Source of the DNA: Gemmatimonadota bacterium
Lineage (GTDB): Bacteria; Gemmatimonadota; Gemmatimonadetes; Gemmatimonadales; Gemmatimonadaceae
Assembly: GCA_026387935.1 (NCBI GenBank)
Contig: JAPLKU010000001.1
Location: 1 to 64,000, forward strand
Direction of reading: 5' to 3'
Length of the DNA: 64,000 nt
Shown: positions 46,600-56,888 of the stretch, one piece after another
Layout of the letters: every line of letters starts with the position of its first letter
Numbering within the stretch: the stretch's first letter is position 1
Notes under the pieces: generated by a model
What the model was told of the DNA's origin: nothing
The model's input: the letters and a program-made list of their open reading frames with translations, nothing else
Databases searched by the model: none
Made by a program: the position numbers and the translations under genes

Positions 46600-46615
46600 T
46601 GTGAATAATTTCACA
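46600..46615. promoter_or_regulatory. CRP/FNR-like operator
   Basis: TGTGAATAATTTCACA fits TGTGA-N6-TCACA, the CRP consensus, as a perfect 6-base inverted repeat around TAAT. It lies between the divergent hisC and cupredoxin genes, 12 bases from the hisC start and 69 from the other. No crp-like gene is in the window. Confidence 0.55.
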
Positions 46616-52034: not shown

Positions 52035-53309
52035 TTAGACGCCCGCCCGTTCGCCCGGTTTCGGCGTGTTCGAGTTCTTCACGTTTCCGGCCTTTGCCGC
52101 CTTCACGTCACCAGCCATCTCGAGATCCTTGAGCGCGCGAACGCGTGCGGCGAGACCGAAGAGGCGAATAAAGCCGGCGGCATCGCTCTGCTGGTAGACG
52201 TCGTCTTCGCCGAACGTGACGAAGCGTTCATCGTAGAGCGCGTGCACGCTGTTGCGCCCGGCGATCGTGACCGTACCGCGGCAGAGGCGCAACGTGATGC
52301 TGCCAGTTACACGACCCTGGGTGGCATTCACGAACGCATCGTAGGCTTCACGCTCCGTCGTCCACCAGCGTCCTTCGTAGACGAGATCGGCATATCGCGG
52401 CGCGATAAGATCTTTGGCCGCAAGGGTACGACGGTCGAGGACGAGCATTTCGAGTTCGCTATGCGCCGTATACAGCAGCGTGCCGCCCGGCGTCTCGTAG
52501 ACGCCGCGCGACTTCATCCCGACGAGGCGGTCTTCGACGATGTCGGCGCGTCCGATGCCGTGCTTACCGCCGATCTCGTTGAGCTTCGTGAGCAGGGCCA
52601 CGGGCGTCAGCGTTGTTCCGTTCACCGCGACGGGCGCACCATTCTCAAAGCCGATGGTCACGTCTTCAGGCGTCATCGGCGCGTCGGCGGGATCGGTCGT
52701 AAGCATGAACAGGTCCTTCGGTGGCACGCTGTTCGGATCCTCGAGGACGCCACCTTCGTGCGAGATATGCCAGATGTTCCGGTCGCGCGAATAGATCTTC
52801 GCCGCTGTTGCGGCGACCGGGACACTGTGTGCTGCCGCATACGCGAGACAGTCCTCGCGCGAGCGAAGGTCCCAGATGCGCCAAGGCGCAATGACCGGAA
52901 GATCCGGGGCCATCGACATGTAGGTCAGTTCGAAGCGCACCTGATCGTTGCCCTTGCCGGTGCAGCCGTGGGCAAGCGCGTCGGCGCCGACTGCGCGAGC
53001 GACTTCGACCTGCTTCTTGGCGATGAGCGGACGCGCCATAGACGTGCCGAGGAGATACTTGCGGTTATAAATCGCGCCGGCGCGCAGCGTCGGCCAGATA
53101 AAATCGCGCACATATTCTTCGCGCAGGTCCTCGACGTAGCACTCCGCCGCGCCCGATGCAATTGCCTTCTGCTTTACGCCGTCAAGTTCTTCGCCTTGTC
53201 CAATGTCCGCCGCGACGCAGATGACGTTCGCGTCGTAGTGCTCGCGCAGCCAGGGAACGATGATCGAGGTATCGAGGCCGCCAGAGTAGGCGAGGGCAAT
53301 GGTCTTCAT
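52035..53309 (-). CDS. argG: Argininosuccinate synthase
   Basis: ArgG joins citrulline and aspartate using ATP. The protein shows the nucleotide motif LAYSGGLDTSIIVPWL, GADALAHGCTGKGNDQVRFE, and DRNIWHISHEGG with VLEDP. The ATG at 53309 matches the family start (MKTIALAYSGG, 424 aa). A GTG at 53366 would add 19 residues and lie inside an ARG-box candidate; it is less likely but would suit a leaderless transcript. It precedes argH in an operon and follows argR on the same strand. Confidence 0.95.
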   Translation of the reverse strand: MKTIALAYSGGLDTSIIVPWLREHYDANVICVAADIGQGEELDGVKQKAIASGAAECYVEDLREEYVRDFIWPTLRAGAIYNRKYLLGTSMARPLIAKKQVEVARAVGADALAHGCTGKGNDQVRFELTYMSMAPDLPVIAPWRIWDLRSREDCLAYAAAHSVPVAATAAKIYSRDRNIWHISHEGGVLEDPNSVPPKDLFMLTTDPADAPMTPEDVTIGFENGAPVAVNGTTLTPVALLTKLNEIGGKHGIGRADIVEDRLVGMKSRGVYETPGGTLLYTAHSELEMLVLDRRTLAAKDLIAPRYADLVYEGRWWTTEREAYDAFVNATQGRVTGSITLRLCRGTVTIAGRNSVHALYDERFVTFGEDDVYQQSDAAGFIRLFGLAARVRALKDLEMAGDVKAAKAGNVKNSNTPKPGERAGV

Positions 53310-53353
53310 CGGAGGAGCACCGGGTAGCGCGGTTGACTGGCTATTCAGATAAC

Positions 53354-53377
53354 TGCATTTAGGCACATAAATATGCA
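53354..53377. promoter_or_regulatory. Candidate ARG box upstream of argG
   Basis: This 24-base imperfect palindrome has TGCATTTA at one end and the complement of TGCATATTTA at the other. The TGCAT half-site is the same as in the argR-argC region (53922-53954). ArgR binds such AT-rich palindromes in many bacteria. It lies 45 bases upstream of the argG ATG. Confidence 0.5.
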
Positions 53378-53430
53378 GAGAATGCCTCGCACAGGCAACT
53401 GCCGGACGCTGCCGGACAGCGGCTTTTCGA

Positions 53431-53892
53431 CTAGCGGCGGGCCAAGCTGAGCAGCCGCTTGGCCACGCGATCGCGCGCGGCGTCGGAGCGGCAAATGATC
53501 AGGATCGTGTTCTCTCCGGCAATCGTGCCGAGGATGTCCGGACTGTCTTCGGCATCAATCGCCTCGGCGATCGGTTGCGCGCCAGCGATTTTCGTGCGCA
53601 CGACGAGAAACTCGCGGACGGAGTCAAGGCGGGAAAAAAACTGAGGGAAAATCGACGCCAGTGTCGCACGACCCTCATCGTGTCCGCCCCCGTCCGCCGT
53701 GGTGTAGCGCGTGCCGGCGGCGGTGGGAATGCGCGCAATTCGGAGATCGCGCATATCGCGTGAGAGCGTGCTCTGTGTGACCTCCCACCCACGTTCGGCG
53801 AGAAGTTGACGGAGCTCTTCCTGGCTCGCGACGGCGCGCGACCCGATAATTTCGCGAATGGCGCTTTGGCGGTCCTGCTTGGCGGCGGTCAC
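53431..53892 (-). CDS. argR: Arginine repressor
   Basis: ArgR represses arginine genes when bound to arginine. The 153-residue protein shows the winged-helix N-terminus (DRQSAIREIIGSRAVASQEELRQLLAERGWEVTQSTLSRDMRDLR) and the C-terminal hexamerisation and arginine-binding domain (VRTKIAGAQPIAEAIDAED, LGTIAGENTILIIC). The GTG at 53890-53892 fits the family length; a TTG at 53931 is less likely. It is divergent from argC with TGCATA-type half-sites between them, so it probably controls both. Confidence 0.94.
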   Translation of the reverse strand: MTAAKQDRQSAIREIIGSRAVASQEELRQLLAERGWEVTQSTLSRDMRDLRIARIPTAAGTRYTTADGGGHDEGRATLASIFPQFFSRLDSVREFLVVRTKIAGAQPIAEAIDAEDSPDILGTIAGENTILIICRSDAARDRVAKRLLSLARR

Positions 53893-53911
53893 AAAACAAC
53901 GATAACACCAG

Positions 53912-53954
53912 TTGACAACGGTATGCAGCAAACTTATGCATTAAGCATGCATAA
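53912..53954 (+). promoter_or_regulatory. argC promoter with ARG half-sites, leaderless start
   Basis: TTGACA (53912-53917) and TATGCA (53935-53940) are 17 bases apart. Transcription would then begin near 53947, which is the A of the argC ATG. TATGCA half-sites at 53922-53927 and 53935-53940 and the palindrome TTATGCAT-TAAGC-ATGCATAA (53934-53954) cover the promoter, so ArgR could block it. Confidence 0.6.
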
Positions 53955-54915
53955 AATCCCGATCGGAGTGATGGGGGCGAGCGGCTATGCCGGTCGGGAG
54001 CTCTGCGCGTTGGTACATGGGCATCCGCAGATGGAACTCGTGTTCGCGACCGCCAACAGCCAGAGCGGTTCGTCGATGGAAATTCCAAATGGCAAACGCA
54101 TTACGTTCGTCGCGACCGAAGACGCGCCGCTCAACAGCGCAAAACTTATTTTCAGTTCACTTCCGCACGGCGCATCGGCGACATGGGCTGAGCGCGCGCG
54201 CGACGCTGGCGCGCGCGTGGTGGATCTTTCCAGCGACTTGCGCATCGGAAACGGTCCGGCGTCGAACGGAATTCCTTACGGCCTGACAGAGGTGCGCCGC
54301 GATCAGGTGCGTGGCGCACAGGTGGTGGCCAATCCAGGCTGCTATCCTACGGCCATTCTTCTCGGCCTGCTTCCGCTGTTCGAGCGGAAGCTCGTCGCTC
54401 CCGGCGCGACGATTTCCATTGCCGCAGCAAGCGGCGTCACGGGTGCGGGATTGTCGCCGCGGCTCGACCTGCTGTTCGGCGAGATCACGGAAAGCTTCAA
54501 AGCGTACGGCGTGGGCAACACGCACCGCCACCTGAATGAAATGCGCGCGCTCGTGAATGAACTTGGCGGCGACGTGGATCTGTTGTTCACGCCACATCTG
54601 TTGCCGACCGCGCGCGGCATTCTGGCGACGATGACCGTGCCGCTGACGCGCGCACTGGAGCACCCGATGGAACCGTGGCACACACGGTTTGCCGGTGAGC
54701 CGTTCATTGAACTTTCCGACACGCCGCCCGAACTGCGCCATGTCAATCGACGGAACGTCGCGCGCATCCACGCGACACCGGTTGCCCATGTGCGGACGCC
54801 GACGCTGCTCGTGTTTTCCGCGATAGACAACCTCATGAAAGGCGCCGCCGGCCAAGCGGTGCAGAACGCGAACCTGATGCTCGGGCTCGATGAAACGATG
54901 GGGCTGCCCGCCTGA
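53947..54915 (+). CDS. argC: N-acetyl-gamma-glutamyl-phosphate reductase
   Basis: ArgC reduces N-acetylglutamyl phosphate to the semialdehyde with NADPH. The 322-residue protein shows the nucleotide-binding IGVMGASGYAGRELC, FSSLPHGAS, VANPGCYPTA with the catalytic Cys, and GVTGAGLSPRL. The ATG at 53947 follows a promoter so closely that the mRNA is likely leaderless. It overlaps argB by one base (TGATG). It heads the argCBD operon. Confidence 0.96.
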   Translation: MHKIPIGVMGASGYAGRELCALVHGHPQMELVFATANSQSGSSMEIPNGKRITFVATEDAPLNSAKLIFSSLPHGASATWAERARDAGARVVDLSSDLRIGNGPASNGIPYGLTEVRRDQVRGAQVVANPGCYPTAILLGLLPLFERKLVAPGATISIAAASGVTGAGLSPRLDLLFGEITESFKAYGVGNTHRHLNEMRALVNELGGDVDLLFTPHLLPTARGILATMTVPLTRALEHPMEPWHTRFAGEPFIELSDTPPELRHVNRRNVARIHATPVAHVRTPTLLVFSAIDNLMKGAAGQAVQNANLMLGLDETMGLPA

Positions 54916-55688
54916 TGCGCCGCGTCGTGAAAATCGGAGGACGCGCGCAGGCCGATCCGGCGCTGGTTGGCGCGGTTGCCGCGGCCGTGGACTCAGGCGA
55001 TTCCGTGTGTCTCGTGCACGGCGGGGGCGACGAAGTTTCGATACTGCAACGCCGGCTCGGCATGGAGCCGAAATTCCTCGGCGGACGCCGCGTGACGAGC
55101 GCGGAAGACATGGATATCGTGCGCATGGTGCTCTCAGGCACCACCAACAAGCGGCTCGTGGCGCAGTTGATCTCGGTTGGTGTGCGTGCCGTTGGAATTT
55201 CCGGCGAGGATGCCGGCCTCTTCAAGGCGCGCGTGACGGATCCACAGATGGGGCGCGTGGGCGGTCGGGTTGACGTCGATGCGTCGATCATCACGCATCT
55301 CCTTGCCGGCAATTTTGTCCCGGTGGTGTCGCCCGTTGCTCGCGACGCCACCGACGCCACCGGCCTGGGACTCAATGTCAACGGCGACGATGCCGCCGCG
55401 GCACTTGCCGCCGCCGTCGGTGCCGAGGATCTCGTGCTCGTTGCCGATGTGCCCGGTGTGCTGGACAACGATGGCGTGATTCCAACGCTCAACCTGGAAG
55501 CGGCGCGCGTTCTGGTCGAGCGTGGTGTGGTGACCGGCGGCATGGCGGCAAAACTCGAGGCCGCCGCTTTTGCGCTGACACATGGTGTTCCGTGTGTGCG
55601 CATTGCGGGGATCACGGGAATTTCTCGTATTTCCTGCGGGACGCGAATCGTACTGACGGCCTCGGCAACTCCTTCACCTCTGCGGTAA
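54915..55688 (+). CDS. argB: Acetylglutamate kinase
   Basis: ArgB phosphorylates N-acetylglutamate, the second step of the acetylated route to ornithine. The 257-residue protein shows KIGGRAQADP at the start, VCLVHGGGDEVS, GRRVTSAEDMDIVRMVLSG, LGLNVNGDDAAAALAAAVGAEDLVLVADVPGVLD and GGMAAKLEAA. The length and residues fit the kinase. It is translationally coupled to argC and followed by argD after 15 bases. Confidence 0.95.
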   Translation: MRRVVKIGGRAQADPALVGAVAAAVDSGDSVCLVHGGGDEVSILQRRLGMEPKFLGGRRVTSAEDMDIVRMVLSGTTNKRLVAQLISVGVRAVGISGEDAGLFKARVTDPQMGRVGGRVDVDASIITHLLAGNFVPVVSPVARDATDATGLGLNVNGDDAAAALAAAVGAEDLVLVADVPGVLDNDGVIPTLNLEAARVLVERGVVTGGMAAKLEAAAFALTHGVPCVRIAGITGISRISCGTRIVLTASATPSPLR

Positions 55689-55703: not shown

Positions 55704-56888
55704 ATGACAGCCACTTTGAGCGCCTCCACGACCGAAGCCCTCTTGGGCGTGTACCGCAAGCCGCCGATGGAGCTGGTGCGAGGCGCGGGCGTGGAGTTGT
55801 TCGACACCGACGGCAAGTCGTATCTCGACTTTGTCGCTGGAATCGCCGTCAATGCGCTCGGGTACGGCGATCCCGGTCTCGAACAGGCGATGCGCGATGC
55901 CATGGAAGGATCGCTGATCCACACGTCGAATCTCTATCGCACGCAGGCCGGTGAACGGCTGGCCGAGCGCTTGGTGGACATCAGCTTCGCGGAGCGGGTG
56001 TTCTTCTGCAATTCCGGAGCAGAAGCAAATGAAGGCGCGTTCAAGCTTGCGCGTCGTTGGGGCCGCGCGAAGGGAGGCACTGCAAAGCATGAAATCATTG
56101 CGTTGCGCGGTGCATTCCATGGACGGCTCTTCGGCACGCTCGCGGCTACAGACCGCCCATCGTATCGCGCGCCGTTCCGGCCGCTGGCCGGCGGCATCTC
56201 AATTGTTGAGCGCGACTTGGACGAACTTGACGCCGCGTTGAACCCTGAAACCGTGACCGCCGTAATTGCGGAGCCGATTCAGGGAGAAGGCGGTGTGCGC
56301 GTGCTCGACCCGAAGTTCTTGCAGGCGCTGCGCGCGATGACACTCGAGCGCGGGATTCTGCTGATCCTCGATGAGATCCAGTGCGGCTACGCCCGCACAG
56401 GAAAGTTTTGGGCACACGAGCATTCCGATATCACCCCCGACATCCTGACGACGGCGAAGCCGATGGCGGGCGGACTTCCGATGGGAGCCATTTTGACGAC
56501 GCGTGAAGTCGCCGATACCATGCAGCCCGGCGATCATGGCACGACGTTCGGTGGCGGGCCCTTCATCTCGGCGGTCGCCTTGCATGTCCTGGGTCGACTC
56601 TCGGATGCCAGTATGCTGAAGCATGTGCGCGAGCGCGGTATGCAGGTCAAGAAAGGACTCGATGCGATCGCGAAATCGAGTTCCAAAGTTCGCGCGGTAC
56701 GGGGAACAGGACTCATGTGGGGTATCGACGTCGCCGACCCCGCGAAGGACATCGTCGGACGCGCAATGGAACTCGGGCTGTTGATCTGTTCGGCCGGCGA
56801 GCACACGCTTCGGCTGCTTCCGCCGCTGGTTGTGTCGAAGGCCGATGTGGATCGAGGGCTCGGACTGCTGAAGCACGCGATCGGCTGA
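55704..56888 (+). CDS. argD: Acetylornithine aminotransferase
   Basis: ArgD transfers an amino group to N-acetylglutamate semialdehyde. The 394-residue class III PLP enzyme shows YLDFVAGIAVNALGYGDP, FFCNSGAEANEGAFKLAR, AVIAEPIQGEGGV, LDEIQCGYARTGKFWAHE and the PLP Lys in TTAKPMAGGLPMG. Succinyldiaminopimelate use is also possible, as in other ArgD proteins. No argJ, argA or argF is in the window, so the pathway is completed elsewhere. Confidence 0.95.
   Translation: MTATLSASTTEALLGVYRKPPMELVRGAGVELFDTDGKSYLDFVAGIAVNALGYGDPGLEQAMRDAMEGSLIHTSNLYRTQAGERLAERLVDISFAERVFFCNSGAEANEGAFKLARRWGRAKGGTAKHEIIALRGAFHGRLFGTLAATDRPSYRAPFRPLAGGISIVERDLDELDAALNPETVTAVIAEPIQGEGGVRVLDPKFLQALRAMTLERGILLILDEIQCGYARTGKFWAHEHSDITPDILTTAKPMAGGLPMGAILTTREVADTMQPGDHGTTFGGGPFISAVALHVLGRLSDASMLKHVRERGMQVKKGLDAIAKSSSKVRAVRGTGLMWGIDVADPAKDIVGRAMELGLLICSAGEHTLRLLPPLVVSKADVDRGLGLLKHAIG

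Follow-up and report, generated by a model that had tools for sequence, protein, structure and literature searches.

A putative tandem ARG operator over a probably leaderless argC start in Gemmatimonadaceae

Introduction

How an arginine biosynthesis operon might be transcribed, translated and repressed from a gap of 54 bp is the question raised by the argR-argC region described here. The window, that is, the whole stretch of 64,000 nucleotides analysed, belongs to a 2.8 Mb genome of the Gemmatimonadaceae and carries on its plus strand, all running rightward, argC (53947..54915; TIGR01850, 272.4 bits), argB, encoding acetylglutamate kinase (54915..55688; TIGR00761, 199.7 bits), and argD, encoding acetylornithine aminotransferase (55704..56888; TIGR00707, 431.2 bits). 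The arginine repressor gene argR (53431..53892, minus strand; PF02863) is divergent from argC and starts with GTG at 53892, the DNA to the left of 53893 being argR coding sequence; argG, encoding argininosuccinate synthase (52035..53309, minus strand; TIGR00032, 476.8 bits), and argH also run leftward. Each of these profile matches lies over its cut-off. In this work, we argue that the gap likely holds a sigma70-type argCBD promoter giving a leaderless or nearly leaderless argC mRNA, with a tandem ARG operator for ArgR placed over the -10 and the start codon.

Methods

Loci of argC were taken from the best 80 among the matches listed, many of them from other phyla; the nearest named relatives among these matches were Gemmatimonadetes/Gemmatimonadaceae MAGs. 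A second source consisted of 80 genomes including the window's own, 73 of which had an argC match; loci were drawn from 30 of them and 20 more were fetched afterwards. Further argC start regions came from argG loci extending to argC. Loci were kept when argC was at least 55% identical, the match began at residue 1 and 60 bases upstream were present (81 loci, own copies included), and were collapsed at 90% identity over 90 bases to 52 non-redundant family loci, the window among them. Some loci stand outside this count, among them L122, L124 and the order-level loci L125-L131, which are described apart. The 52 loci share ancestry, and codon probabilities derived from them are not independent tests.

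The weight matrix was trained on 39 relatives in the commoner register, excluding the window's own locus, and was run over 464 kb of the window's own genome and over three of its arg loci. For argF, argJ and carA, 31, 21 and 21 genomes were searched and 29, 14 and 21 upstream rows inspected, respectively; one argF row (L213) is a match of only 26%, and the own argJ was inspected separately.

Results

A probable promoter next to the argC start codon

Upstream of argC the window reads TTGACA (53912..53917), 17 bp, TATGCA (53935..53940), 6 nt and the ATG (53947..53949), all on the plus strand and exactly as an earlier note on this DNA had it. This arrangement recurs throughout the family. TTGAC sits at -35 in 38 of the 52 loci and at -36 in 11, and a -35/-10 pair spaced by 17 bp is present in 49, in two registers one base apart that leave 6 or 7 nt between the -10 and the start codon; three loci (L006, L117 and L119) have no standard pair. 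The start codon is ATG in 24 loci and GTG in 28, and 51 of the 52 have no Shine-Dalgarno-like tetramer within -20..-5. Family argC thus combines a candidate -10 ending 6-7 nt before the start codon with the lack of a Shine-Dalgarno site, as expected of a leaderless gene. The conservation has sharp borders: among the 51 relatives, no column between -60 and -36 exceeds 0.42 bits and none between -29 and -21 exceeds 0.15 bits, and upstream conservation rises clearly only at -35..-31 (TTGAC), at -19, -17 and -16, and at -13..-6, which reads TTATGCAT. It is high again from +1 onward (RTG[C/A]ATAAA). A conserved block therefore adjoins unconserved DNA in the 52 family loci.

The kept -35/-10 spacing and the absent Shine-Dalgarno site, together with the codon 2 bias described below, indicate that argC probably has little or no leader and starts within the operator. 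Since the -35 sits 35 bases before the start codon, transcription would begin on this codon or no more than about one base away from it. The earlier note had placed it on the A of the ATG; the leaderless or nearly leaderless mRNA is supported. The block lies one base further upstream in 11 of the 52 loci, so 0 or 1 nt of mRNA may precede the start codon. An in-frame ATG at 53923 was considered as an alternative argC start and rejected: it would sit between the -35 and the -10 and, by eye, few near relatives have it.

The best surviving alternative accepts the operator and gives the argC mRNA a short leader or a start further upstream, the -10 likeness of TATGCA being a by-product of the ARG half-site. 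We consider it unlikely, although it has two points in its favor. TATGCA is a poor -10 with no T at -7, which is the main weakness of our assignment, and in six order-level relatives a -10-like hexamer lies, by eye, some 11 nt ahead of the argC start. Against it, 49 of the 52 loci retain TTGAC at -35/-36 even though it lies outside the ARG boxes, and a 17-bp spacing from it points to TATGCA as the -10; moreover, the window DNA to the left of 53893 codes for ArgR, and a Shine-Dalgarno-like tetramer occurs in a single locus of the 52.

Leaderless starts appear to be a normal minority in this genome, because the pattern TAnnnT peaks at -12: among 274 first-start candidates in 464 kb, which rest on crude gene calls, it occurs 12 times at this offset versus 0-4 at the others, except for 8 at -4. 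Shine-Dalgarno-like tetramers in the same 464 kb peak at -12 and -11, with 16 each. All 15 TAnnnT leaderless candidates have the T at -7 that argC lacks, as the pattern itself selects for it. Unlike argC, they mostly have no good -35; a -35 of at least 4/6 beside TAnnnT was found at one place for -12 and at one place for each of eight other offsets, that is, without enrichment at the leaderless position. The own argF (L209) and the gene L266 have TAnnnT hexamers 9 and 6 nt before their starts and look leaderless or nearly so. L266 is presumably a carB-like gene.

Two putative ARG boxes, one of them over the argC start

The -10 region and the argC start share an 8+5+8 inverted repeat, TTATGCAT-TAAGC-ATGCATAA, spanning 53934-53954. 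The earlier note had read it as a palindrome that would place ArgR over the -10. The relatives and the matrix support the idea that an ArgR-type operator covers the -10 and the start of argC, yet the repeat is not one box: it is better described as the junction of two tandem boxes, given that, by our half-site arithmetic, two 18-bp ARG boxes separated by 3 bp have inner halves spaced as ATGCA-N7-TGCAT. Box 1, GCAGCAAACTTATGCATT (53925..53942, plus strand), shares its right half with the putative -10, and box 2, CATGCATAAAATCCCGAT (53946..53963, plus strand), covers the start codon and codons 2-6.

Each box has one weak half in the window: AGCAA on the left of box 1, and TCCCG, within codons 5-6, on the right of box 2. 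The left half of box 2 is conserved in the relatives as TGCAT or TGAAT. For the outer left half of box 1, in the -20..-16 register, 14 of the 52 loci have TGCAA or TGCAT and further loci are one base off or carry one change; complete boxes 1 are present in L014 and L106. Symmetrised over the relatives, box 1 becomes AATGCATAATTATGCATT, an 18-bp TGNAT-N4-ATNCA palindrome. The 3 bp between the boxes of the window fall within the 2-3 bp of tandem ARG boxes. Across the 52 loci the inner gap is 7 (3 bp between boxes) in 32, 8 (4 bp) in 9 and 3 or 4 in 10, in the last case apparently owing to an additional ATNCA closer to the start; one locus was unmatched.

It could be argued that the conserved unit is a single inverted palindrome, ATGCA-N7-TGCAT, and that the outer half-sites are irrelevant. 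At argC the inner halves do show stronger conservation than the outer halves, and TATGCA-N6/7-TGCATAA recurs, by eye, at argG of many relatives. Nevertheless, the columns -19, -17 and -16, which form the outer left half TGCAW, hold 0.8-1.2 bits and give TGCAW-N4-ATGCA together with the right half, and the ARG boxes described so far are N4-spaced and come in tandem pairs in the parts of the reports available (PMC6245113, PMC4865122). We therefore regard the single palindrome as improbable and retain the tandem operator.

A possible minus-strand promoter for argR was seen by eye at 53892-53935, its -35 lying under ARG box 1. If it were real, ArgR could also repress argR itself.

Codon 2 of argC within the proposed operator

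With box 2 lying over the start codon and codons 2-6, the second codon of argC would be part of the operator. It is CAT in 43 of the 52 loci, AAT in 7, AAC in one and AAA in one. Histidine at this position is thus encoded by CAT in 43 of 43 cases, versus 152 of 436 elsewhere in the same argC genes; for asparagine, AAT makes up 173 of 586 codons over the rest of these genes. Independent draws would give the CAT bias a probability of 2e-20, a figure that is too strong given the shared ancestry, although the bias itself is plain.

The loci outside the family count show how far the arrangement reaches. In L122, ArgC is longer by about 22 residues near its N-terminus, yet the gene starts with GTG-CAT within the same block, TTGACA-17-TATGCA-6-GTG. 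L124, from the window's own family, breaks the pattern: its ATG follows a TGCATAA element and no TTGAC-17 pair was seen. Six of the seven order-level loci L125-L131 matched with a start RTG[A/C]AT, followed in five of the six by AATCAT, and therefore have a box inside codons 1-6; the seventh, L129, was seen separately.

Uniqueness of the site in the genome

The 2.8 Mb genome contains a single copy of the exact dyad TATGCA-N7-TGCATA, the one at argC, and no place has exactly one mismatch. Only the exact match is telling, because allowing up to 2 mismatches gave 12 places, whereas the control, the pattern written backwards, gave 24. The looser TGCAT-N4-ATGCA, again with up to 2 mismatches in the whole genome, gave 754 places against 578 for its control and was too unspecific to help. 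The weight matrix scored the argC site of the window at 44.2 bits, its own antisense strand at 26.9 and the next best place at 3.2; with the start-codon columns set to zero, these values became 39.0, 21.6 and 12.7. As single boxes, box 1 was the top place in the 464 kb with 18.7 bits, by a small margin over an unrelated-looking site at 46600 with 15.9, and box 2 scored 6.0 bits (rank 21 of the window positions).

That promoter and protein constraint alone produced this conservation, with ArgR uninvolved, seems very improbable: argF, argJ and carA have no visible box and we infer ArgR binding at argC from the sequence, but CAT at codon 2 is invariable where histidine is encoded, the exact dyad has no second copy in the genome, relatives have the same motif at argG, and argR is adjacent.

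ARG boxes at argG and the remaining arginine genes

The TGCAT half-sites that the earlier note reported upstream of argG are present (TGCAT at 53354-53358 and TATGCA at 53372-53377). The best single box in this region, box A, is TCTGCATATTTATGTGCC (53362..53379, minus strand; 9.3 bits, rank 7 of the window positions); box B, TCTGAATAGCCAGTCAAC (53332..53349, minus strand), is of the TGAAT type and weak by the matrix (2.1 bits, rank 70). In the same genus, argG has a TGCAT-like box upstream and in some genomes a TGAAT-type box further down, the copies of the window being weaker; L087, for instance, has TGAAT-AGTC-ATTCA at the position of box B. Outside the genus, the argG element of many relatives reads TTATGCA-N6/7-TGCATAA and is followed, by eye, by a leader, often with a Shine-Dalgarno site, in contrast with argC; it was not clearly visible in L102, L104 and L108.

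At argF, argJ and carA no tandem ARG box was seen by eye and half-site highlighting in 125 bases upstream, and the own copies of these three genes gave nothing in the top list of the matrix scan. The own argF, which has the TAnnnT hexamer mentioned above, likewise showed no ARG box. Seven same-genus genomes have argG matches of only 32-33% identity, so a replacement of argG by a different type may have taken place in this genus.

Discussion

Taken together, these results point towards the following model. The argR-argC gap would hold a sigma70-type promoter for argCBD, whose mRNA would have neither leader nor Shine-Dalgarno site. ARG box 1 would cover -22 to -5, including the spacer and the -10, and ARG box 2 would cover -1 to +17. 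By analogy with the known family, ArgR, most likely as an arginine-bound hexamer, would occupy both boxes and block RNA polymerase. Because the first two codons together form one operator half-site, the repressor would also largely fix their letters, as RTG and then CAT or AAT. The operator probably lets ArgR shut off arginine synthesis, which is a known kind of switch. What appears to be new is that, at argC of Gemmatimonadaceae, a tandem ARG operator and a leaderless start are joined in a fixed arrangement, the parts being of known kinds.

The box sequence is among those known parts. The earlier note had suggested a variant unlike the TGAAT type of E. coli; this claim to novelty does not hold. 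TGCAT is in the published Streptomyces consensus AWTGCATRWWYATGCAWT, as given in the portion of the report available (PMC4865122), and AATGCATAATTATGCATT fits it fully. The relatives also use TGAAT, which alternates with TGCAT at their argC (AAT as codon 2 in 7 of 52), and the argG region of the window contains TGAAT-AGCC-AGTCA.

Several described systems resemble this one in part, as far as the available portions of the reports go. In Streptomyces, argC, argG and argH have TGCAT-N4-ATGCA boxes in adjacent pairs (PMC3293853, PMC4865122), and a table footnote mentions one predicted ARG box that overlaps a start codon (PMC3293853); in the Gemmatimonadaceae, however, the pair is locked to the -35/-10/start block of argC in nearly all loci examined, with the start codon within a half-site. 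At E. coli carAB P2, two 18-bp boxes 3 bp apart take up one ArgR hexamer and overlap a promoter element (PMC6245113), but that element is the -35, whereas here the boxes lie over the -10 and the start codon and are more often of the TGCAT than of the TGAAT type. The argC operators bound by AhrC in B. subtilis also include one ARG box inside the argC coding region; there, however, 11 bp separate the boxes of the high-affinity pair, and the box in the coding region is an operator of its own (PMC3293853). Finally, the acuR-acuI-dddL operon of Rhodobacter sphaeroides is leaderless and has a repressor operator adjoining its start, although the repressor is the TetR-family AcuR instead of ArgR and the 5' end, predicted here, was mapped there (PMC3017554). 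Our literature search returned no paper joining ArgR, leaderless mRNA and the ARG box, and none joining Gemmatimonad bacteria with ArgR and arginine. According to the model, ArgR would have two or more targets in this phylum, argCBD and argGH among them, and the argC site offers a clear natural case of an operator, a leaderless start and codons under joint constraint that is open to base-by-base testing.

The repressor itself belongs to the expected family. The window ArgR matches PF02863 over its cut-off, it has the helix-turn-helix of the family, the alignment with 1f9n and 1b4a takes in residues 6-150 of its 153, and its relatives in the PDB are the ArgR/AhrC structures 1f9n, 1b4a and 3ere; against TIGR01529 it scores 127.2 bits, slightly under the cut-off of 130.45. 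The GDD turn of ArgR contacts L-arginine. According to the part of the report available, no other stretch longer than two residues is fully conserved in four ArgRs, while the first Asp of the turn is missing in some ArgRs (PMC7248756). The window ArgR, encoded at 53434-53892 on the minus strand, has GEN at this turn. GEN is found in 20 of 20 distinct ArgR sequences that include the turn and are at least 65% identical (the own one included), in 14 of 35 at 48-65% and in 0 of 9 below; the L088 ArgR, missed by the search pattern and outside the 20, also has GEN, and those of L083 and L089 end before the turn. It is tempting to speculate that a block of about 50 bp unites promoter, tandem ARG operator and argC translation start, that the repressor dictates the start context and codon 2, and that the GEN shared by the nearest relatives may mean a weaker dependence on arginine or a different co-repressor; as a whole we hold this extended proposal to be doubtful, and rather unlikely to be right in all its parts.

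A further palindrome came out of the single-box scan. The place at 46600-46615 is a perfect TGTGA-N6-TCACA lying between a minus-strand and a plus-strand gene, the latter starting at about 46669. We take the site to be of the CRP/FNR-like type, and its neighbors to be a hisC-like aminotransferase gene (minus) and a gene for a cupredoxin-like lipoprotein (plus).
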